36,582 nt of DNA from Nitrospirota bacterium (GTDB lineage: Bacteria > Nitrospirota > Thermodesulfovibrionia > UBA6902 > DSMQ01), in contig JACRGX010000057.1 of assembly GCA_016212185.1 (NCBI GenBank), positions 1 to 36,582 on the forward strand, in the 5' to 3' direction. Within the stretch, counting starts at the first letter, position 1, and each line of letters begins with the position of its first letter. The notes beneath the pieces are model-generated. The model did no database searches, was not told where the DNA came from, and worked only from the letters and a program-made list of their open reading frames with translations. The position numbers were made by a program, and so were the translations under genes. Below, piece by piece: positions 592-29,132 of this stretch.

Positions 592-888
592 TTGCCGGCT
601 AAGTCACCACCGAAAAAGAGCAAATCAGCAATAAAAAGGGCAAGGCAGGCGCCTAAAAGGAGAGCGAGAAATGTCTCCGTAAAGAGCGCGTTGAAGACTT
701 TTACAAAAAAAGTTGAGTCAGAAGTGCTCGGTAAAAATGCAGAAGGCGCAAAGGCTGTATTGCACAAAGCTGTTCGTGCCATTGATAAAGCTGCTTCTAA
801 GGGGATAATCCACAAAAACACTGCTGCAAGAAAAGTTTCAAGGCTTACAAGGCTTGTCAATTCATTGAGTGCGGCTGGAGCAGCTTAA
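592..888 (+). CDS. rpsT: 30S ribosomal protein S20
   Basis: 98 residues, very basic, alanine- and lysine-rich, with the S20 pattern: KSAIKRARQ near the N-terminus and IDKAASKGIIHKNTAARKVSRL near the C-terminus. S20 is a primary 16S rRNA-binding protein of the small subunit. The start is TTG at 592-594, preceded by a strong GGGGAGGT Shine-Dalgarno at 579-586. A rare start fits the family, because E. coli rpsT also uses UUG and is autoregulated. The gene converges on holA, and the two 3' ends overlap by 32 bp. A leader hairpin lies upstream. Confidence 0.95.
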   Translation: MPAKSPPKKSKSAIKRARQAPKRRARNVSVKSALKTFTKKVESEVLGKNAEGAKAVLHKAVRAIDKAASKGIIHKNTAARKVSRLTRLVNSLSAAGAA

Positions 889-1825
889 GCAGAAGCAGTT
901 CCATAATTACTTCCGGTCTACCCGTTGAAGTTTTTATTCCTGCATCTGCTTCGTGCATGCATTGGAATATGCCGGAGAAATATTTTTCAGTGCAGGACGG
1001 CAGGTGTTTTAAAAGCGTACGGTAGGTAATTTCTCCCATCTTTAGAACCCTTTTGCCTTTCCCTTCCCACAGGTTATAAAACTGCCTGTAATGCCAGTTT
1101 AAAGCTCCGAGGATTGATGTTGCCTCAAAACCGTTTTCAAACAGCACTTTTAAAATTCTGAAGGCATTTGCCTTGTTATTTGCCATTACGGCATCAACAA
1201 GATTAAAGACAGTGTATTCCCTCATCATGCCAGTGAGCGACAGTATGTCTTTTCCGCCTATTAATTTAAGCCCGGAAGCAGAAAATTTTTCCAGCTCAGC
1301 CGCCAGCAGTCCGATATCATGTCCTAAAAATTCAATCAGATAATCAACTGCTCCCTGAGTCATGTTAATGCCCTTTTCATGCGCCCTTTGTTTTATCCAG
1401 GCAGGCACATCAGCCTCCTTTATTATCAGCGGGAATACGGGCACGTCATCAAAAAGGTTTTTTTGGTCTTTTCTGGTTTTTGGTTTTACCTGTGAAAGTA
1501 TGAGCATGCATGTGCTTTGGGAAGGCTGCTTTAAATACGGCTCCAATGCCTTGATAAAAGACTTCTGAAACTGGTGAAAATCCCTGACAACTACCAGTCT
1601 CCGCGGCGCCATGAAAGGCAGGGTAAGCGCAGAATCTATAATCTCATTCGGGACAGTTTCAGGATAAAAAACATTGAAGTTGAAGTCTTTCAGATGGCCG
1701 GCAAGAACCATATCAACCGCTTTTGAAAGAAAGTCATCCAGAAAAAAATTTTCTGCGCTCCAGACAAAGTAAATGGGCTGCGGCAGGTGTTTTTTCAGCT
1801 CTTTTTCAAGGCCTTTGTTTAGCAT
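857..1825 (-). CDS. holA: DNA polymerase III subunit delta
   Basis: 322 residues, the usual length for HolA. The protein begins with the typical 'IYFVWSAENFFLDDFLSKAV' type of N-terminus and ends with 'TGRPEVIMELLLLKLL', both characteristic of delta. Delta opens the beta sliding clamp within the clamp-loader complex; this subunit has an AAA+ fold without ATPase motifs. The start overlaps the end of lptE by 20 bp, giving the order leuS-lptE-holA also found in E. coli, which supports the identification. The 3' end overlaps convergent rpsT. Confidence 0.93.
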   Translation of the reverse strand: MLNKGLEKELKKHLPQPIYFVWSAENFFLDDFLSKAVDMVLAGHLKDFNFNVFYPETVPNEIIDSALTLPFMAPRRLVVVRDFHQFQKSFIKALEPYLKQPSQSTCMLILSQVKPKTRKDQKNLFDDVPVFPLIIKEADVPAWIKQRAHEKGINMTQGAVDYLIEFLGHDIGLLAAELEKFSASGLKLIGGKDILSLTGMMREYTVFNLVDAVMANNKANAFRILKVLFENGFEATSILGALNWHYRQFYNLWEGKGKRVLKMGEITYRTLLKHLPSCTEKYFSGIFQCMHEADAGIKTSTGRPEVIMELLLLKLLQPHSMN

Positions 1826-2348
1826 ACTTTATTACGGTTTTCCCTATTATCTCTTTTGCTATTTCTGCGCATGCCTTATCAACCGTTTTTTCCTTATGAA
1901 CAACAGCCTGGCTTACGGAGCCGGAAGATTGGAAAGTAATTCTTAAAGGCGATTCTATTGATGCAAACTCGGTAACTTTACCTTTGTCTGTAATTTTTAT
2001 GTCAACCTTCATTATTATTGCCTGTTCCTGTGCTTTTTCATCAAGGGTGGCTATGGTGTTCAGTTCAAATGCAGTTACAGTGGCCTCAATTTCAATATCG
2101 CCTTTTTCCGTTTTTACATTAATGCCCTGTGCAATGAATTCCTTTGCAAGCGCATTATGCAATCTTTCTTCAAGACGGGGCTCATAGGTCTTATTCTTAA
2201 CCGGTTTAATGGTCACCGAATCAAATGGCAGGGTGCTGGAGCCGATTAAATGATAACCGCAGGAGGTTAAAAAAAATGCAAAATGCAAAATGCAAAATGC
2301 AAAATTAAGGAAATTTTTATTTTTGAATTGTATTTTTGAACTTTTCAT
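1806..2348 (-). CDS. lptE: LPS-assembly lipoprotein LptE
   Basis: 180 residues. A lipoprotein signal ends in LTSC with the lipidated cysteine at residue 30, followed by GYHLIGSSTLP, the usual start of mature LptE. LptE plugs the LptD barrel in the outer membrane and helps insert lipopolysaccharide. The gene sits between leuS (14-bp gap) and holA (20-bp overlap). The oddity is that the start codon, n-region and hydrophobic core (NFAFCILHFAFF) are written in an A/T-rich heptamer array, TTTTGCA repeated on the coding strand, so the signal peptide seems to be built from a repeat element. The mature domain looks normal. Confidence 0.9.
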   Translation of the reverse strand: MKSSKIQFKNKNFLNFAFCILHFAFFLTSCGYHLIGSSTLPFDSVTIKPVKNKTYEPRLEERLHNALAKEFIAQGINVKTEKGDIEIEATVTAFELNTIATLDEKAQEQAIIMKVDIKITDKGKVTEFASIESPLRITFQSSGSVSQAVVHKEKTVDKACAEIAKEIIGKTVIKYAKQRP

Positions 2349-2362: not shown

Positions 2363-4870
2363 TTAAAGGACTATGTTTACAAGCCTGCCCTGAACCACTA
2401 TTATTTTTTTGACAGACTTGCCCTTTGTATATTCTATAACTTTAGGGTCAAGAAATGCTTTTTCCTTTATTGCTTCATCGTCAAGCCCGGAAGGTATTGT
2501 GAGCTTGCCCCTTAATTTGCCGTTTATCTGTACGACAAGTTCAACCTCATCTTCCTTTGTCATCGCTTCGTCCCATTCGGGCCAGGGTTCAGTAAATATG
2601 CTCTGTCTGCTTCCTGAAAATTCCCATGCTTCCTCAGCAAAATGCGGCGCAAACGGCGAAAGCAAAATGATAACATTTTTAATGCAGAATAGCAGGGCTT
2701 CTGCGTCCTCCGGGGTGGAGGCATCAAAAGCCGCCGCCTCATTCATAAGCTCCATTAATGACGCTATGGCAGTGTTGAAATGATAATCGCGCTCAATGTC
2801 GTTTGTGACTTTTTTAATGGTCTGATGGGTCTTTCTTAAAAGCCGTGATGCGTTATCCGTGATGTGTAACCTGTTTATATTTTCTGACGCATTACCCGTT
2901 ACGTTTAATGCATTACGGCTTTTATACACAAAGCCCCATACCCTGTTTAAAAAGCGGAATGCGCCTTCCACTCCGTGGTCTGACCAGTCCAAATCCCGTT
3001 CAGGCGGTGCGGCAAAAAGGCAGAAAAGTCTTACAGTGTCAGCGCCGTATTCCCCGATTAAATAATCAGGGTCCACGACATTGCCCTTAGATTTGGACAT
3101 CTTTGCGCCTTCTTTAATTACCATCCCCTGAGTAAGAAGTTTTTTAAACGGCTCGTCTGCTTTGACAATGCCGATTTCTCTGAGCGCCTTTGTAAAAAAT
3201 CTGGAATAAAGCAGGTGGAGGACTGCATGCTCAATCCCTCCTATGTACTGGTCCACGGGCATCCAGTAATTGACGGCGTCTGAATCAACAGCCTTATCAT
3301 TAACTGAGGGGGAGCAGTAGCGCAAAAAATACCATGACGAGTCAACGAATGTATCCATGGTATCTGTTTCCCTTTTTGCAGGCTTACCGCATTTCGGGCA
3401 TTCGGTATTAATAAAATCCGAAAGCTCTGATAAGGGCGTGGCGCCCTTGCCTGTGAGCGTGACGTTCTCAGGAAGAATGACAGGAAGTTTGTCCTCAGGC
3501 ACAGAAACGATGCCGCAGGTGTTGCAGTAAATTACCGGAATCGGCGTGCCCCAGTACCGCTGTCTTGATATGCCCCAGTCCCTTAATTTGTAATTCACGA
3601 CCTTTTTGCCGAGACCGCCTGCCTCAATAAAGCCGGCAATTTTTGACCTTGCCTCATCGCTCGGAAGCCCTGAGAATTGTCCTGAATCAATTAAGACGCC
3701 CTCGTCTTCGTAAGCGGCGGTGAGAGGGGTCCAGGGGTCCAGGGGTCCAGCGGCCAAATGAGAATTACTTGAACCCTTGAACCCTTGAATCCTTGAATCC
3801 TTTACAATTACAACTCTCACCGGCAGATTATACTTCTGTGCAAACTCGTAATCTCTCTGGTCATGCGCGGGAACGGCCATGACTGCGCCGGTGCCGTATT
3901 CCATGAGGACAAAATTTGCAGCCCAGACTGGAATCTTGTCACCGGTCAGCGGATTGACGGCATAATGCCCTGTAAAAACGCCTTCTTTTTTCTCCGGGTT
4001 TTCAGGGAGCGATTCAATTTTCTTGAGGGTTTTTTTGTCCTTTACAAGTTCGGCAATGAGCGGGTGTCTTTTTGCAAGGCTCATAAATGTTGCACCGAAG
4101 AGCGTATCCTGCCTTGTGGTGAATATCCTGATTTTTTTGTCATATCCGGCAATTTTAAAGTCAACCTCAACGCCCTCGCTCCTGCCGATCCAGTTTCTCT
4201 GCATGGTTGTGACCTTCTCGGGCCAGCCTGTAAGATTATCGCAGAATTTTAAAAGCTCCTCGGCGTACGAGGTGATTTTAAAAAACCACTGCTCAAGTTT
4301 TTTTTGCGTTACAGCGCTGTCGCATCGCCAGCACAGCCCGTCAAGGACCTGCTCATTTGCAAGGACAGTTTCACATGAGGGGCACCAATTGACAAAAGAA
4401 GCCTTTCTGTATGCCAGCCCTTTTTGTAGCATCTTTATGAAAAACCACTGATTCCATTTGTAATATTCGGGCGAGCAGGTTGCAACTTCTCTCTGCCAGT
4501 CATAACTGATGCCCAGCTTTTTAATCTGCCCGCGCATGTAATCAATATTCTCATAAGTCCACTTTGCGGGGTGAACGCCGTGTTTTATTGCCGCATTCTC
4601 GGCAGGCAGGCCGAAGGCGTCCCATCCCATCGGATGAAGCACATTAAAACCGCGCATCCTTTTGTATCTTGAGATTACGTCTCCGATAACATAATTGCGC
4701 ACGTGCCCCATATGAATCTTCCCTGAGGGATAGGGGAACATCTCAAGGCAGTAGAACTTAGGGGAGACGGAGTCTTCTGTTACCATGTAAAGGGCTTTCT
4801 TATCCCAGAAGTCCTGCCACTTTTCTTCAATTTCCTGCGGGTTGTATTTTTCCTGCAAAACCGCCTCCAT
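2363..4870 (-). CDS. leuS: Leucyl-tRNA synthetase
   Basis: About 835 residues. It has the HIGH-type motif HMGH in [15 protein letters not shown] (about residues 48-62), the zinc-ribbon-like CPSCE...CWRCD, a CP1 editing domain with [12 protein letters not shown] and [12 protein letters not shown], and the KMSKS loop near residue 590 ([14 protein letters not shown]). It charges tRNA-Leu with leucine and edits mischarged product. I chose ATG at 4870; a TTG three codons upstream (4879) is in frame, and neither has a clear Shine-Dalgarno. It is the first gene of leuS-lptE-holA. Two word-array insertions are read in frame: about residues 357-381 in the editing domain, and about 650-676 just before the anticodon-binding domain. 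The catalytic motifs are intact. Confidence 0.96.
2842..2919. repeat. Inverted heptamer arrays, in frame in leuS (C-terminal insert)
   Basis: Left arm: CGTGATG, CGTTATC, CGTGATG, TGTAACC (2844-2871). Right arm: CGCATTA, CCCGTTA, CGTTTAA, TGCATTA (2888-2915). The ends are GCCGT and ACGGC, exact reverse complements. The right arm reads as an imperfect reverse complement of the left. It encodes the LeuS stretch around [20 protein letters not shown]. The same word family recurs at 22232-22259. Confidence 0.75.
3726..3799. repeat. 8-mer arrays, in frame in leuS (editing-domain insert)
   Basis: Three exact copies of GGGGTCCA (3726-3749), an 18-bp spacer, then four copies of CTTGAACC/CTTGAATC (3768-3799). 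The reverse complement of the second word (GGTTCAAG) resembles the first word permuted, so the arms can pair imperfectly. It encodes roughly [20 protein letters not shown] within the LeuS editing domain. Confidence 0.75.
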
Positions 4871-5009
4871 AGTAAGCAAATAAAAATTCAGAGGGTTTTA
4901 TTTTACCATAAACATAAGATTTCTAATCTGATGTTGTATACTATAGCGGTTTTATTTAATGCCTTAAAATATGAGGCTGACAATGAGGTTATATTAAGGA
5001 AATGTTTTT

Positions 5010-14874: not shown

Positions 14875-15752
14875 AGGGAGGGATTAGGGATTTGGGATTA
14901 GGGATTACCCACCCCAAAATCCCAACCGCTGCACCCCGCATTTTGGGGCTTATTGCCGGAAAAGGGGACCTGCCCAAGGCAATTGCCTCAGAAGCCAGGA
15001 AGATGGATTACAAAGTCGTTGCTGTCGGCCTAAGGCCTCTTGCCGATGAATCCCTCAGGCATTTTGCAGATGAATTCATTGAGATTAATGTAGGTCATCT
15101 CGGAAAATTAATAAGCTCCTTAAAAAAATTCCATATAACCGAAGCTGTTATGGCAGGCAAGGTGCCAAAGGGGCTTCTTTATAAAAACAAAGGCAGAATC
15201 CTGCCTGACCTCAGGGCCATAAAACTCCTCTTCTCTCTGAAAGACCGCTCTGACGATTCAATCATGAACGGGATAGTCCATGAGCTTGAAAAAGAAGGCA
15301 TAAAATTGTTAAAGACAACCGCATTCACAAAAAATCTTCTCACTGCTGAAGGTGTGCTGACAAAAAAACAGCCGGATGAAAAACAATGGAAGGATATGGA
15401 ATTCGGATGGAAGATTGCCAAAGAAATCGGAAGGCTGGATATAGGTCAGACCATAATTGTAAAAGACAGGGCAGTAATGGCAGTTGAAGCCATAGAGGGC
15501 ACTGATGAGGCAATACTGAGGGGCGGGGCGCTTGCCGGCGCAGGCGCAGTTGTTATAAAAGTCAGCAAGCCTCAGCAGGATATGCGTTTTGACGTCCCTG
15601 CAGTAGGCATTGATACCATTCATGTAATGAAAAAAGCCCATGCAGGCGTGCTTGCGCTTGAGGCTAAAAAAAGCATCATCATTGACAGGGGAAAATTTAT
15701 CCACGAAGCTGAAAAGGCGGATATAGCAGTAGTCGGAGTGGGTGATGCTTAA
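14865..15752 (+). CDS. lpxI: UDP-2,3-diacylglucosamine pyrophosphatase LpxI
   Basis: 295 residues. After an unusual ~25-residue leader the protein reads LGLIAGKGDLPKAIASEARK, the usual LpxI (DUF1009) start, then MAGKVPKG and a C-terminal domain with DRAVMAVEAIEGTDEAILRGG. LpxI hydrolyses UDP-2,3-diacylglucosamine to lipid X, replacing LpxH. The leader (MPLKGGIRDLGLGITHPK) is encoded by a GGGATTA heptamer array. I kept ATG 14865, coupled to lpxA, because the only later candidate, a TTG just before GLIAGKG, has no ribosome binding site. The stop overlaps the next gene by 8 bp. Confidence 0.92.
   Translation: MPLKGGIRDLGLGITHPKIPTAAPRILGLIAGKGDLPKAIASEARKMDYKVVAVGLRPLADESLRHFADEFIEINVGHLGKLISSLKKFHITEAVMAGKVPKGLLYKNKGRILPDLRAIKLLFSLKDRSDDSIMNGIVHELEKEGIKLLKTTAFTKNLLTAEGVLTKKQPDEKQWKDMEFGWKIAKEIGRLDIGQTIIVKDRAVMAVEAIEGTDEAILRGGALAGAGAVVIKVSKPQQDMRFDVPAVGIDTIHVMKKAHAGVLALEAKKSIIIDRGKFIHEAEKADIAVVGVGDA
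14880..14923. repeat. Heptamer array in the 5' end of lpxI
   Basis: GGGATTA, GGGATTT, GGGATTA, GGGATTA (14880-14907), then CCCCAAAATCCC (14912-14923), an inverse-complement style arm. It is read in frame as the extra N-terminal residues of LpxI. Confidence 0.75.
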
Positions 15753-17778: not shown

Positions 17779-19087
17779 GCACCAACACTGCATTGACCCC
17801 GCCAAAACCAAAGGAGTTTGAGAGAGCGGTATTTAAGTCCTTCTTTTGCGTTTTTTTAACATAATTAAGATTACGGTCAAGGTCCGGATTTTCGAGATTA
17901 ATAACCGGCGTTATAATTCCCCTGCTGATTGAGAGAGCTGTTATTGCAGCCTCAACCGCGCCCGCACCTCCAAGCATATGCCCGAGCATGGATTTACAGG
18001 CGCTTATGGGAATACCGGAGGCATGTGTGCCAAAGACTTTTTTTACTGCCTGTATCTCCGCCCTGTCCCCGAGCGCTGTTGATGTGGCATGGGCATTAAT
18101 ATAGTCAACATCTTCTATTGAGATTTTTGCATCGTTTAACGCCTTCTTTATCGCAGAGGCTTCGCCTCTGCCGTCAGGCTTTGTCATGTGAAACGCATCA
18201 GAAGATGTCCCGTATCCGGTAATTTCAGCATAAATATTTGCACCTCTTTTTAGTGCGTGATTAAGTTCTTCAAGCACAAGAATTCCCGCGCCTTCTGCAA
18301 TTACAAAGCCGTCCCTGCCTCTGTCAAAAGGCCTGCTTGCTTTTTCAGGGTTATTATTTCTTTTTGAGAGTGCGCCTGCTGCACTGTAACCGCCGACGGC
18401 AAATCTGCAAATAGGCGCCTCCGCCCCTCCTGCAATTGATAGATTAATTTCTCCATGTTGTATTAATCTTAATGCCTCGCCGATGGCGTTTGCCCCGGAG
18501 GCGCAGGCCGTTGATATGCCGAGGGAAGGGCCCTTTATGCCAAAGCGCATGGAGATATAAGATGAGGCCATGCTGATTGCAGTTGCAGGCATAAGATATG
18601 GGGAAAAACGTAAGATGTGAGGTGTAAGGCGTGAGGAGATAAACTTTTTTCTGACTCCCGACTCTCGGAATCGAGTCGTGCCGACCTGACTTCTGATGAT
18701 AGATTTTTCAAAAGTGCTTATCCCCCCCCTGCTTGAGCCGATGACAACTCCTGCTGAAGCAAGTGAGGAGTGATTTTGTTTTTCTAACCCCTGACCTCTG
18801 ACCCCTGACCCCCGACGTATAAGTCCCGCATCTTCCAGCGCCATTACCGCGGCGGCAATTGCATAATGTATGAACGGATCAAGCCTTAGGATATCTTTTT
18901 TTGAAAGATATTTTTCAGGTGAAAATCCTTTGAGTTCCCCGGCGATTCGGGATGAGAGCCCGGAGGCGTCAAACCTTGTTATTAAGCCTATTCCCGAGCG
19001 CCCTTTTTTTAAATTTTCCCACGTAGCTTCAATGTCGTTTCCAAGCGGAGTAACAGCGCCGATGCCTGTGATTACAACTCGTTTCAT
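17765..19087 (-). CDS. fabF: 3-oxoacyl-ACP synthase II (FabF), with two in-frame insertions
   Basis: 440 residues, about 25-30 longer than usual. The catalytic triad is intact: C195 in GISTACASG, H333 in NAHATSTALGD, H370 in SMLGHMLGGAGAVE, with K365. FabF condenses malonyl-ACP with acyl-ACP in fatty acid elongation. Two repeat-derived insertions are read in frame, at about residues 92-110 (RRGSGVRGQGLEKQ) and 133-163 (SQVGTTRFRESGVRKK to about ILRFSP). Both lie before the active-site cysteine, in segments that vary in length in the family. A good promoter sits only 8 bp upstream of ATG, suggesting a leaderless message. It converges with gnnB. Confidence 0.92.
   Translation of the reverse strand: MKRVVITGIGAVTPLGNDIEATWENLKKGRSGIGLITRFDASGLSSRIAGELKGFSPEKYLSKKDILRLDPFIHYAIAAAVMALEDAGLIRRGSGVRGQGLEKQNHSSLASAGVVIGSSRGGISTFEKSIIRSQVGTTRFRESGVRKKFISSRLTPHILRFSPYLMPATAISMASSYISMRFGIKGPSLGISTACASGANAIGEALRLIQHGEINLSIAGGAEAPICRFAVGGYSAAGALSKRNNNPEKASRPFDRGRDGFVIAEGAGILVLEELNHALKRGANIYAEITGYGTSSDAFHMTKPDGRGEASAIKKALNDAKISIEDVDYINAHATSTALGDRAEIQAVKKVFGTHASGIPISACKSMLGHMLGGAGAVEAAITALSISRGIITPVINLENPDLDRNLNYVKKTQKKDLNTALSNSFGFGGVNAVLVLRKF
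18609..18696. repeat. Heptamer arrays in frame in fabF (insert 2)
   Basis: CGTAAGA, TGTGAGG, TGTAAGG, CGTGAGG (18609-18636, consensus YGTRAGG), an A/T spacer, then CTGACTC, CCGACTC and related words to about 18696. Within the second part, CGACTC and GAGTCG form a perfect 6-bp inverted repeat around TCGGAATC. It encodes about 30 residues of FabF without a stop. Confidence 0.7.
18787..18814. repeat. Heptamer array in frame in fabF (insert 1)
   Basis: ACCCCTG, ACCTCTG, ACCCCTG, ACCCCCG in direct succession. On the coding strand it reads as GSGVRGQG in FabF. No partner arm is evident. Confidence 0.7.
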
Positions 19088-20139: not shown

Positions 20140-21714
20140 ATGAAGAAGACGACCGTATTTATAAACTGTTTTTTACTGCTTTCACTGTCTGTTATTTTTC
20201 TGTTTGCGGCCCTGCCGGCGGAATCCTTAGCCGCTACTCCGAAGATTGTATCAGGATATTATCATACATTAGCCATAAAGTCAGACGGGACCTTATGGGC
20301 ATGGGGAAGAAACAACTACGGTCAATTAGGAGACGGAACGACAACCCAGAGAACCACTTCAACACAAATAGGCACAGATAATAAATGGGTCTCCATTGCT
20401 GCAGGAGGCACTCACACGGCAGCCATAAAGTCAGACGGGACATTATGGACATGGGGGAGCAACAGTTACGGTGAATTAGGAGACGGAACAACAACCAATA
20501 GATTTGCCCCGATACAAATAGGAACGGATAATAAATGGGTCTCAATTACAGCGGGCGACTCTTATACAATAGCCATAAAGTCAGACGGGACCTTATGGGT
20601 ATGGGGAAAAAATAACGAGGGCCAATTAGGAGACGGAACAACAACCAATAGAAACATTTCGACACAGATAGGCGCAGATAATAAATGGATATCTGTTACA
20701 GGGGGATTTTATCACACCATAGCCTTAAAATCAGACGGGACATTATGGGCATGGGGATCCAACAATTATGGTCAATTAGGAGACGGAACAACGACTAAAA
20801 GAAACACCCCGGCACAAATAGGCGCGGATAATAACTGGGTTTCTGTTGCAACAGGATATTTTCACAGTATAGCTCTCAAATCAGACGGGACATTATGGGC
20901 ATGGGGATGGAGCTATTCAGGTCAGCCCGGCGGTACAACAACTCAGAGATTAACCCCGGCACAAATAGGCACAGAGAATGTATGGGTCTCTGTTGAAGGG
21001 GGAAGAGATCACACCATAGCTTCAAAATCAGACGGGACGATATGGGCGTGGGGATGGAACGGGTATGGCCAGCTTGGAGACGAAACAATAAGTCATAAAT
21101 ACTCACCTGTTCAAGTAACTACTTCTGCTAAAGCAACCAAACCTGTTCAAGCGGCTGCACCTGCTCAGGCAACCACACCTGCTCAAATAACTGATTGTGC
21201 TGATAAAGATGCCGATGGATATGGCAATCCCGGCAGCGCCTCCTGCCCTAACGGTTTAGCAACAGACTGTAATGACAATGATGGCACAATCAACCCCGGT
21301 GCGGCTGAGATATCAAATAACAATACTGATGACGATTGCAATCCTGAAACGCCCGGCATTTCAGTTTCAGGCAATGCTTACAACTACCCTGTGCCTTTAT
21401 TCAGGGCCGGGTTGTCCCTTAGTGTGAATTCATCATCACTGTCAACAAGTTATCTTAACTATTACTATGCCCGTAACGTGTTTAGTTTTATAAGCACATC
21501 AATTACAGACGTTACTGCAGCAGGAGGAATTGCAACGGTTACAGGTACAGGAAAAGTCAATGGAATTGATGGGTGTTCGTTTAAGGCAACAGTCACTGAC
21601 GGCGCCCCGGATGCTATGGGAATAGTGATTACGCCTGGGGGAGCCTGCACTACTTCTTACAATGCTGACACACAGACCGTAACCAGCGGGAATCTTATGG
21701 TAGCGGGAGAGTGA
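20140..21714 (+). CDS. Secreted RCC1-repeat protein with MopE-like metal-binding motif
   Basis: 524 residues. A signal peptide (about 1-31) leads into six near-identical RCC1 repeats of about 51 residues (core [20 protein letters not shown]), then a Pro/Ala/Thr-rich linker ([16 protein letters not shown]). Next comes [11 protein letters not shown]...[15 protein letters not shown]...DDDCN, the pattern of MopE-type and thrombospondin-like Ca2+ or Cu-binding segments on surface proteins. A C-terminal beta-rich domain ends in a Gly-rich tail. Location should be cell surface or outside. RCC1 propellers normally have seven blades; only six are clear. Shine-Dalgarno GAGGGGG at 20129-20135. Function unknown. 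Confidence 0.75.
20250..21110 (+). repeat. Six tandem RCC1 repeats, about 153 bp each
   Basis: The DNA repeats as well as the protein: TCAGACGGGACATTATGG and close variants recur about every 150 bp, at six sites. Nucleotide similarity this high suggests recent duplication or ongoing conversion. Copy five has lost LGD (GQPGGTTT). Confidence 0.8.
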
Positions 21715-27661: not shown

Positions 27662-28081
27662 TCACCGGGATACTGCATCGTATTGTCCGTTATTTTCATC
27701 GTTGCTGATTGTTACGACTACCCTGTTTGGAACGCAGACTATGGCGCCGCTTTCTATCCAGCCCTGACGGACGCACAGCTTATTGGGACAGGGCGACTCT
27801 TTCATGCGCACTTTCCTGTTTTTTATTTCAATTACGCTGTCTCCGGCAGCGCCTTTTACGGTTACGGTCTCTGCCTCATCCAAAGGAAGGACATAAGCAA
27901 TCTTGTTGTCAGAGGCGATTTTGACAAGATTGCCGGGATGGATGAATTTTTTTGCAAGCGGAAAACTGATGACGGTAAGAATAATCAGCAGCAGGAATAT
28001 GAGCTTATCCATGATGGTGGCAGTACGGGAAAAAACTGTCCATAAATCTTTAAAGAGGTTTTTCAATTGTAATCTTTCCAA
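27662..28081 (-). CDS. NusG domain II protein (EetA-like)
   Basis: Up to 139 residues. One membrane anchor (about 25-45, after MDKL) precedes a small extracytoplasmic domain with SPCPNKLCVRQGWIESGAIVC and PNRVVV, the cysteine pattern of NusG-domain-II proteins. These are not transcription factors despite the name. They occur next to Gx transporters and ApbE-type enzymes in flavin-based extracytosolic electron transfer loci, as here. The TTG start (28081) overlaps apbE by 32 bp; ATG 28012, right before the membrane segment, is an equally plausible start. Neither has a strong Shine-Dalgarno. Confidence 0.78.
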   Translation of the reverse strand: MERLQLKNLFKDLWTVFSRTATIMDKLIFLLLIILTVISFPLAKKFIHPGNLVKIASDNKIAYVLPLDEAETVTVKGAAGDSVIEIKNRKVRMKESPCPNKLCVRQGWIESGAIVCVPNRVVVTISNDENNGQYDAVSR

Positions 28082-29132
28082 TCAGATCTTTTGTAATGTG
28101 CATTTTTTTGCCGGCATCAACTATTATGCCGCTTAAGCCCATTGATTCAAGGAGTTTAATCCCCTTTTCAGGCCCGAGTACAAATGCCCCTGTAGAAAAA
28201 CTGTCAGCGGCGTATCCATTATCCGCTATGACTGAAACACTGATGGAGTTTGATGCAGGAAAGCCGGTTTTAGGGTCAATGATGTGATGATAGCGTCTGC
28301 CGTCTTTTACAAAATATCTCTGGTAGTCGCCGGAAGTTGATATTGCTTTGTCCTGAAGGTCAATAGCTGCAAATATTCCATCTGCCCTTGGATCCTGTAT
28401 TCCGACCCGCCACGGCTTTCCATCGGGCTTAATGCCGAACCCTTTTATATCGCCTGCGATTGACACGAGCGCTGCCTTGATGCCTGCCGCCTTAATTGCT
28501 TCAATTGCCATGTCAGCGGCATAGCCCTTTGCAATTGCCCCAAGGTCAATTGCCATGCCTTTTTTTTGCAAAAATACTTCTGACAGGGAGTTGTTTATTA
28601 TGATTTTTTTGTAATCAATCAGAGGGAGGATGTTTTTTATTTTATCATCCTGCGGGATACCGGCAGCGCCCTTGCCGGAAAATCCCCAGAGTTTTGTCAG
28701 CGGTCCTATGGCAGGGTCAAATGCGCCGTTTGTGCCGTCTGAAACCATCAGCGCCTTTTTTATAATATCCAGCGTTTCAACGCTTACCTTGACAGCCTTG
28801 TATCCTGCAGCCTTATTAACGGCGGAGATTTCGCTGTCATCCGAGAAGAAATTAAGGAGCGCCTCAAGCTTTTTAATTTCAGCAAACCCCGCATCCACTG
28901 CCTTTTTGGCATCTTTTTCCGATGCACTTACAGCAGTGATTGTGCAGACGGTATCCATGATTACCATATTCTCTTTGTAGGTTTTATCCTGTCCTGCGCA
29001 ACCGGAGAAAAACAGTAAACAGTAAACAGTGAATAGTAAACAGTGAATAGTAATCAGTGAACGGTGAATAGTGAACAGTGAACGGAAAATTTGGAATTTG
29101 GAATTTGGAATTTGGAATTTTGCTTTTCTCAC
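28050..29132 (-). CDS. apbE: FAD:protein FMN transferase ApbE, lipoprotein
   Basis: 360 residues. A lipoprotein signal ends in FFSGC (cysteine 45), then an ApbE domain with [43 protein letters not shown] and [12 protein letters not shown]. ApbE attaches FMN from FAD to threonine of exported redox proteins using Mg2+. GTG 29132 overlaps the uvrA stop (GTGA), so it is coupled to uvrA. The entire signal peptide ([11 protein letters not shown]... then [20 protein letters not shown]) is encoded by two heptamer arrays. No in-frame start lies between them and the lipobox, so the repeats must be translated. A NusG-II and a Gx gene follow. Confidence 0.92.
29011..29121. repeat. Two heptamer arrays forming the apbE signal peptide
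   Basis: Ten consecutive copies of AAYAGTR or close variants plus a partial (29011-29085), then four copies of AATTTGG plus a partial (29088-29120). Both are read in frame on the minus strand. They are not reverse complements of each other, unlike most loci in this window. Confidence 0.85.

Follow-up and report, generated by a model that had tools for sequence, protein, structure and literature searches.

Comparison of gene starts within one order of Nitrospirota suggests that export signals in these bacteria are assembled from repeat DNA, with repeats that differ between species. The case examined here is the lptE gene in a 36,582-nt stretch of Nitrospirota DNA (the window). Its signal peptide probably consists of a decayed A/T-rich segment, which supplies the start codon and a basic n-region, and a perfect (ATTTTGC)n array, which supplies the h-region, both placed on an ancestral lipobox and mature protein; it would be one case of an order-wide process in which arrays turn over and are filtered by function.

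The Pfam match of LptE scored 35.8 bits against a cut-off of 23, and the gene sits between leuS and holA, which is its orthologous position. As stated in the original prediction, AAAATGC is found four times head-to-tail on the plus strand (2273-2300), and these copies extend to a perfect array of 33 nt (Table 1). The array lies inside the coding sequence and codes for residues ~15-26 of LptE (N-FAFCILHFAF-F), that is, the h-region of a signal peptide reading MKSSKIQFKNKNFLNFAFCILHFAFFLTS^CGYHL; in the stretch NFAFCILHFAF-FLTSC the array-coded core abuts the lipobox. As had been proposed, a heptamer free of stop codons yields one heptapeptide cycle whichever frame is read, 7 and 3 being coprime. 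The expected period FAFCILH is present, but it is read for only about 1.5 periods, since 33 nt correspond to 11 codons. The start codon, n-region and hydrophobic core had all been assigned to the heptamer element. This holds for the h-region, but the start codon (M1, 2346-2348) and the n-region (MKSSKIQFKNKNFL) lie outside the perfect array in degenerate A/T-rich DNA, for which TRF gave a period of 28 (4 x 7) with 81% matches over 2310-2364 and a period of 7 with 65% matches over 2312-2364. Tandem AAAATGC (at least two units) occurs at this single site in the 2.33-Mb genome, and the reversed control pattern does not occur in it.

The n-region MKSSKIQFKNKN is positively charged, with four Lys within residues 1-12 and acidic residues absent, and the hydrophobic h-region FLNFAFCILHFAFFL is uncharged apart from a single His (mean Kyte-Doolittle value of the unit, 2.1). 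LTSC fits the lipobox pattern [LVI][ASTVI][GAS]C. From its sequence, LptE is therefore predicted to bear a lipoprotein (signal peptidase II) signal peptide, and we infer that the product is exported and lipidated at the Cys. A usable LptE start downstream of the array was looked for and is absent; the sole start-like codon after the n-region is a TTG within the array (residue 21), and a start there would leave MHFAFFLTSC, without a charged n-region.

Table 1. Coordinates of the lptE and apbE features in the window
Feature	Position	Strand	Description
holA (DNA pol III delta)	857..1825	-	downstream neighbour, overlapping the lptE 3' end; Pfam, ORF
lptE	1806..2348	-	LPS-assembly lipoprotein, 180 aa; ORF and Pfam PF04390 LptE, residues 42-168, E=1.4e-8
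Lipobox LTSC	2259..2270	-	directly following the array; codon of Cys30 at 2259-2261; in relatives the mature part likewise begins with a conserved Cys
Perfect array (AAAATGC)4.7	2273..2305	.	minus strand ATTTTGC, LptE h-region, AFCILHF cycle
lptE start codon and n-region	2306..2348	-	in a decayed A/T-rich stretch of period 7/28, similar to the AAAATTC arrays that encode n-regions in relatives
leuS	2363..4879	-	upstream neighbour, stop ~15 nt before the lptE start; Pfam, ORF
apbE lipoprotein	28050..29132	-	another signal peptide built from arrays, the window's second; 44 residues, then ^C; Pfam ApbE E=1.3e-90
ApbE lipobox FSGC	28998..29009	-	at the array end; translation; ApbE match (28053-29000) starts at the Cys codon
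Imperfect AACAGTG/AACAGTA heptamer array, 10 units	29010..29083	.	hydrophobic h-region of ApbE
(AATTTGG)4.7 array	29088..29120	.	polar/basic n-region of ApbE, 11 residues

We determined the abundance of such arrays in the source genome. Perfect period-7 arrays of at least 2.5 copies numbered 53 in 605 kb, against 0 in a Markov-1 simulation, and period-8 arrays 19, against 0 simulated; periods 5, 6 and 9-12 were at background. The 73 period-7 arrays in 866 kb fall into 33 unit families, headed by AACAGTG (20) and AACCTTC (8). Perfect period-7 lengths peak at 33-34 nt (five copies minus one or two bases) with a maximum of 38 nt, and no perfect tract above about five copies was found in the samples. 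The size cluster (7-mers at 33-34 nt, a single 8-mer at 39 nt) and its sharp upper limit are seen, for example, at L046:17135, L052:2884, L069:4004 and L147:1541, a pattern more like birth at a fixed size than slippage without an upper bound. Stop codons in at least one orientation are carried by 27 of the 33 unit families vs. about half of all heptamer families, a difference that A+T content may explain. A search for a larger mobile element, via common flanks of single-unit copies, matched only paralogous genes and neighbouring repeats.

Arrays are also found outside export signals. The octamers AAGGGGTC and AACCCTTG are mostly intragenic, as in leuS at 3725-3802 of the window, and in many relatives arrays with differing units recur at two fixed leuS sites (roughly -1050 and -620 relative to the Cys codon of lptE; L005-L021, L124), which are probably tolerant loops of LeuRS. 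In an lpxI-like gene, a 5'-terminal AGGGATT array (14879-14907) gives the cytoplasmic-looking protein an N-terminal GIRDLGLGI extension; gene-start arrays therefore extend beyond signal peptides. Elsewhere in the window, an ACCCCTG array (18783-18816) lies within a beta-ketoacyl synthase gene (VRGQGLEK), and an RCC1-like repeat protein (20140-21714) combines tandem repeats of ~150 nt with a signal peptide.

The array-built signal peptide of apbE, whose GTG start overlaps the uvrA stop codon, is accompanied by others elsewhere in the source genome. They belong to LolA (MKKQLSVISYQLSVKRLFTVHCLLFTVLLTVHCLLFTAVYA^AT), GspD (MKQLSVISYQLSVKKFLISCFSVIIFLFTVHCSLFTAVYA^ET), a DacA-type carboxypeptidase (Peptidase_S11; 43 residues, then ^DD), an Omp85 protein, a DUF3108 protein and one lipoprotein without a Pfam match; the family was confirmed with Pfam for LolA, Peptidase_S11/DacA, GspD, Omp85 and DUF3108. 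Gene starts were taken from a simple gene finder. Among the 109 signal peptides predicted in 875 kb of the genome, a strict caller placed arrays in 6, an under-call, as it missed at least those of apbE, lolA and gspD. In pseudopilins of type II secretion, too, the leader that precedes GFTLIE is written in several different heptamers (L046:7311-10408, L037:1201).

For comparison with relatives we used LptE, ApbE and LolA orthologs from up to 40 genomes of the same order in Nitrospirota, mostly MAG-like draft assemblies; lptE orthologs were present in 55 of the 61 genomes searched, and orthologs of BamA and DacA were also found. A period-7 array occupied the signal-peptide window in 20/40 lptE, 16/28 apbE and 21/30 lolA orthologs (57/98 together); these genes were selected because the source genome has arrays there, and the genome-wide share is smaller. 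At the same threshold, periods 4, 5, 10, 11 and 13 gave 0/98, and at the four loci (lptE, apbE, lolA and skp) a period-7 tract was present in 27 of the 2791 remaining windows, about 1% (Fisher p~1e-71). No array was found in 30 skp signal peptides, nor in the 24 predicted signal peptides of a nearly array-free genome of the same class (G058). Four skp loci (L205, L207, L208, L211) have heptamer-like tracts in the spacer just 5' of the start codon, with ordinary signal peptides. In 39 lptE orthologs, the source genome being excluded, period-7 self-match was 0.40-0.51 in the 110 nt leading up to the Cys codon, vs. 0.27-0.39 for control periods 4/5/10/13 over the same stretch; it dropped to 0.23 right after the Cys codon and stayed at background across the remaining locus.

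The composition of the arrays follows their position. Those ending within 25 nt of the cleavage site encode a hydrophobic heptapeptide in 43 of 46 cases (mean Kyte-Doolittle value +1.5), and those ending more than 40 nt upstream of it a polar one in 31 of 34 (mean net charge +1.1; MWU p=5e-13 for near vs. upstream arrays). The array chemistry is that of the h- and n-regions, in the right order. About 82% of the signal-peptide units carry a stop codon when reversed; the requirement for no stop explains the orientation in most cases, but not the n/h ordering.

It is possible, if on the doubtful side, that the arrays reflect permissiveness and nothing else, random arrays surviving where sequence is irrelevant, never selected as better signals and creating no export. 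Arrays of other types do occur in leuS loops, prepilin leaders, TPR proteins and spacers, and permissiveness is also part of the model we favour. Taken alone, it is difficult to reconcile with the frequency of arrays in the three signal peptides, as period-7 tracts were found in only 0.4-3% of intergenic windows, counted without runs of N (22/742 in the source genome, 2/452 in G008 and 2/91 in G012). The second of these genomes has arrays in all three signal peptides despite its low intergenic density. Furthermore, the peptide has to fit the chemistry of the n- and h-regions. For the remaining arrays, permissiveness may be enough.

The units themselves differ widely between species, with 31 distinct perfect heptamer families in the lptE, apbE and lolA signal peptides. 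In relatives, the 5' region of lptE carries ACTTCTT, GCTTACT, ACTTGTT, ACTGTTC, ACTTCTC, AAAATTC and more, that of apbE TCTGTGC, TTCATCC, ACTGTCT, TTACTTC, TCTTTGC and more, and lolA is similarly varied; within one genus, at least five lptE units occur among ten species. Conservation of one sequence across distant relatives would have spoken against a repeat-derived signal, and we found the opposite, orthologs carrying other heptamers at the same place. Together with the lack of a downstream start, this comparison of sequences supports the proposal that export signals could be created or replaced when a repeat lands on a signal peptide. In a congeneric genome (G001), apbE is 91% identical over the aligned part and uvrA is conserved up to its stop codon, after which an AGTTATC array stands in place of AAATTCC; lolA is 88% identical with a different signal peptide, and lptE gave no match in this assembly, which is 87% complete. 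In the G001 apbE sequence (L176, ~1457-1510), five AGTTATC copies are present, the h-region and first mature residues are absent and the frame is broken, by deletion or assembly error; for this reason only the n-region comparison is safe. Amino-acid divergence of the signal peptides was dropped as evidence of replacement, as skp signal peptides diverge as much. Because signal-peptide identity is low in skp too, the case rests on DNA periodicity and not on divergence.

Related species sometimes share units, such as SLVT/SLFT in LolA of genus g8, or have units one substitution apart; the pattern is therefore partly inheritance and in-place change and not all fresh replacement. Such change could account for the whole pattern if a repeat signal peptide was inherited and its unit drifted by point mutations spread via slippage or gene conversion, with no insertion or replacement, a possibility to which we give tentative weight. 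Many h-type units are indeed one substitution apart (ACTTCTT, ACTTGTT, ACTGCTT, ACTTCTC), two genomes (G029 and G031) share one lptE signal peptide and differ little in that of lolA, and lolA of genus g8 keeps SLVT/SLFT-VHA. Yet ATTTTGC in the lptE described here and TTAATTA, or no array, in other species are not single steps apart, and neither are AAATTCC and AGTTATC in congeneric apbE. The same units also occur at unrelated loci (AACAGTG in 20/73 arrays), and copy number never exceeds about five, unlike in slippage-prone tracts. An array could be inserted, take the place of another or be re-homogenised where it stands; of these routes we infer replacement over slow in-place drift.

In the array-turnover model that we favour, short arrays of many heptamers and some octamers (perfect stretch of up to about five copies, 33-38 nt) would arise and turn over continually. 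They would persist where sequence matters little, in spacers, loops and prepilin leaders and chiefly in Sec and lipoprotein signal peptides. T-rich stop-free units would give a membrane-spanning core in any frame, and A-rich units a basic n-region (AAAATTC giving NSKFKIQ, AAGTCAG giving SEVRSQK). Recognition by SecA/SRP and by LspA or LepB may then retain arrays only where type and place both fit, and these would become replacement signal peptides. Random-sequence screens suggest that signal peptides require only crude chemistry; they would tolerate arrays for this reason and because the same peptide is read in every frame. An extended form of this model, which we think rather unlikely, has a dedicated process emitting fixed-size heptamer and octamer arrays (about five copies, 33-39 nt) at gene junctions, as portable n-type and h-type export cassettes that rebuild the signal peptides of essential envelope genes on species-level time scales.

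The position of the arrays at tight operon junctions could instead point to a role in DNA or RNA, as a protein-binding site or in translational coupling, with the signal peptide as a tolerated by-product. Several arrays start 3-16 nt past the upstream stop codon, the starts of apbE and lolA overlap or abut the upstream gene, and in Beggiatoaceae TAACTGA repeats lie just upstream of start codons (PMC4679880). This reading becomes quite unlikely because the 31 unrelated heptamers are beyond recognition by one site-specific factor; hydropathy and charge follow the signal-peptide position, and the period-7 signal ends at the Cys codon. Phase variation, in which gain or loss of one 7-nt copy would switch lptE off or on, is very improbable: a 7-base coding repeat does shift the frame by one, and the other two frames past the array are not LptE, but the array has fewer than five copies, long arrays are absent from the samples, and lptE, an essential assembly gene in model Gram-negatives, does not present a long tract in a dispensable surface gene. 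We give hardly any credence to an assembly or annotation artefact, with the array as a 5'UTR or assembly error and the LptE start elsewhere, as the MAG data, possible TTG starts and the frame-broken apbE of G001 would allow, given that three genes, across dozens of independent assemblies, share one architecture and that no alternative start leaves a signal peptide ahead of the conserved lipobox.

If the array-turnover model is correct, these genomes hold a natural repeated experiment on the birth of export signals, and the origin of targeting signals becomes testable through species comparison. Evolution appears to exploit the loose requirements of signal peptides with a DNA module that is proof against reading out of frame. 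The model would also account for the difficult annotation of gene starts and signal peptides in these genomes and tie the poorly understood heptamer repeats of bacteria to an effect on protein.

Bacterial heptamer arrays are already known, the STRR repeats of cyanobacteria being comparable 7-nt simple repeats; for signal peptides encoded by heptanucleotide arrays we found no report in literature searches, most subscription journals being outside their reach. G-rich heptamer repeats are described as GGGAATC in Xanthomonas and GGGGA(T/C)T in Nostoc, intergenic and G-quadruplex-forming (PMC4692102). They share with our arrays the excess of 7 nt over other periods and differ in their intergenic position, their quadruplexes and their one or two units. 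A neuO-type tract is an N-terminal 7-nt repeat translated as a repeating heptapeptide, in this respect like lptE, but it is a long, variable-copy switch in a cytoplasmic enzyme and not an export signal. Such phase-variable heptanucleotide tracts at gene 5' ends, including that of neuO, appear in the accessible part of one account (PMC13001214). Available excerpts on Borg elements (PMC9879509) and on the lysine-rich localisation repeats of Plasmodium, a targeting signal (PMC5207086), describe new protein segments made from repeats as here; as far as these excerpts go, those repeats act at the amino-acid level and in disordered regions and are not bacterial Sec signals.

The closest likeness in array size is to two further systems. 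Multicopy elements of Geobacter metallireducens contain 4-5 tandem heptanucleotides within and between genes; they differ in having a fixed consensus, read as regulator binding sites or RNA elements, and the portion of the paper available reports no coding of signal peptides (PMC2700814). TAACTGA direct repeats of marine Beggiatoaceae, cyanobacteria and Bacteroidetes (MacGregor 2015, PMC4679880) are mostly intergenic, upstream of start codons, with one dominant unit and a proposed role in translational regulation; their translation LSVISYQ is given there and signal peptides are mentioned 0 times. The lptE array is similarly a head-to-tail 7-nt repeat and, with 4.7 copies, lies within their 2-6 copy range, and TAACTGA itself is found here in the n-regions of lolA and gspD and in apbE of G001, encoding LSVISYQ. 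It differs in its unit, AAAATGC, and in being intragenic instead of mostly intergenic and upstream of the start, and in these genomes many units, not a dominant one, code for export signals.
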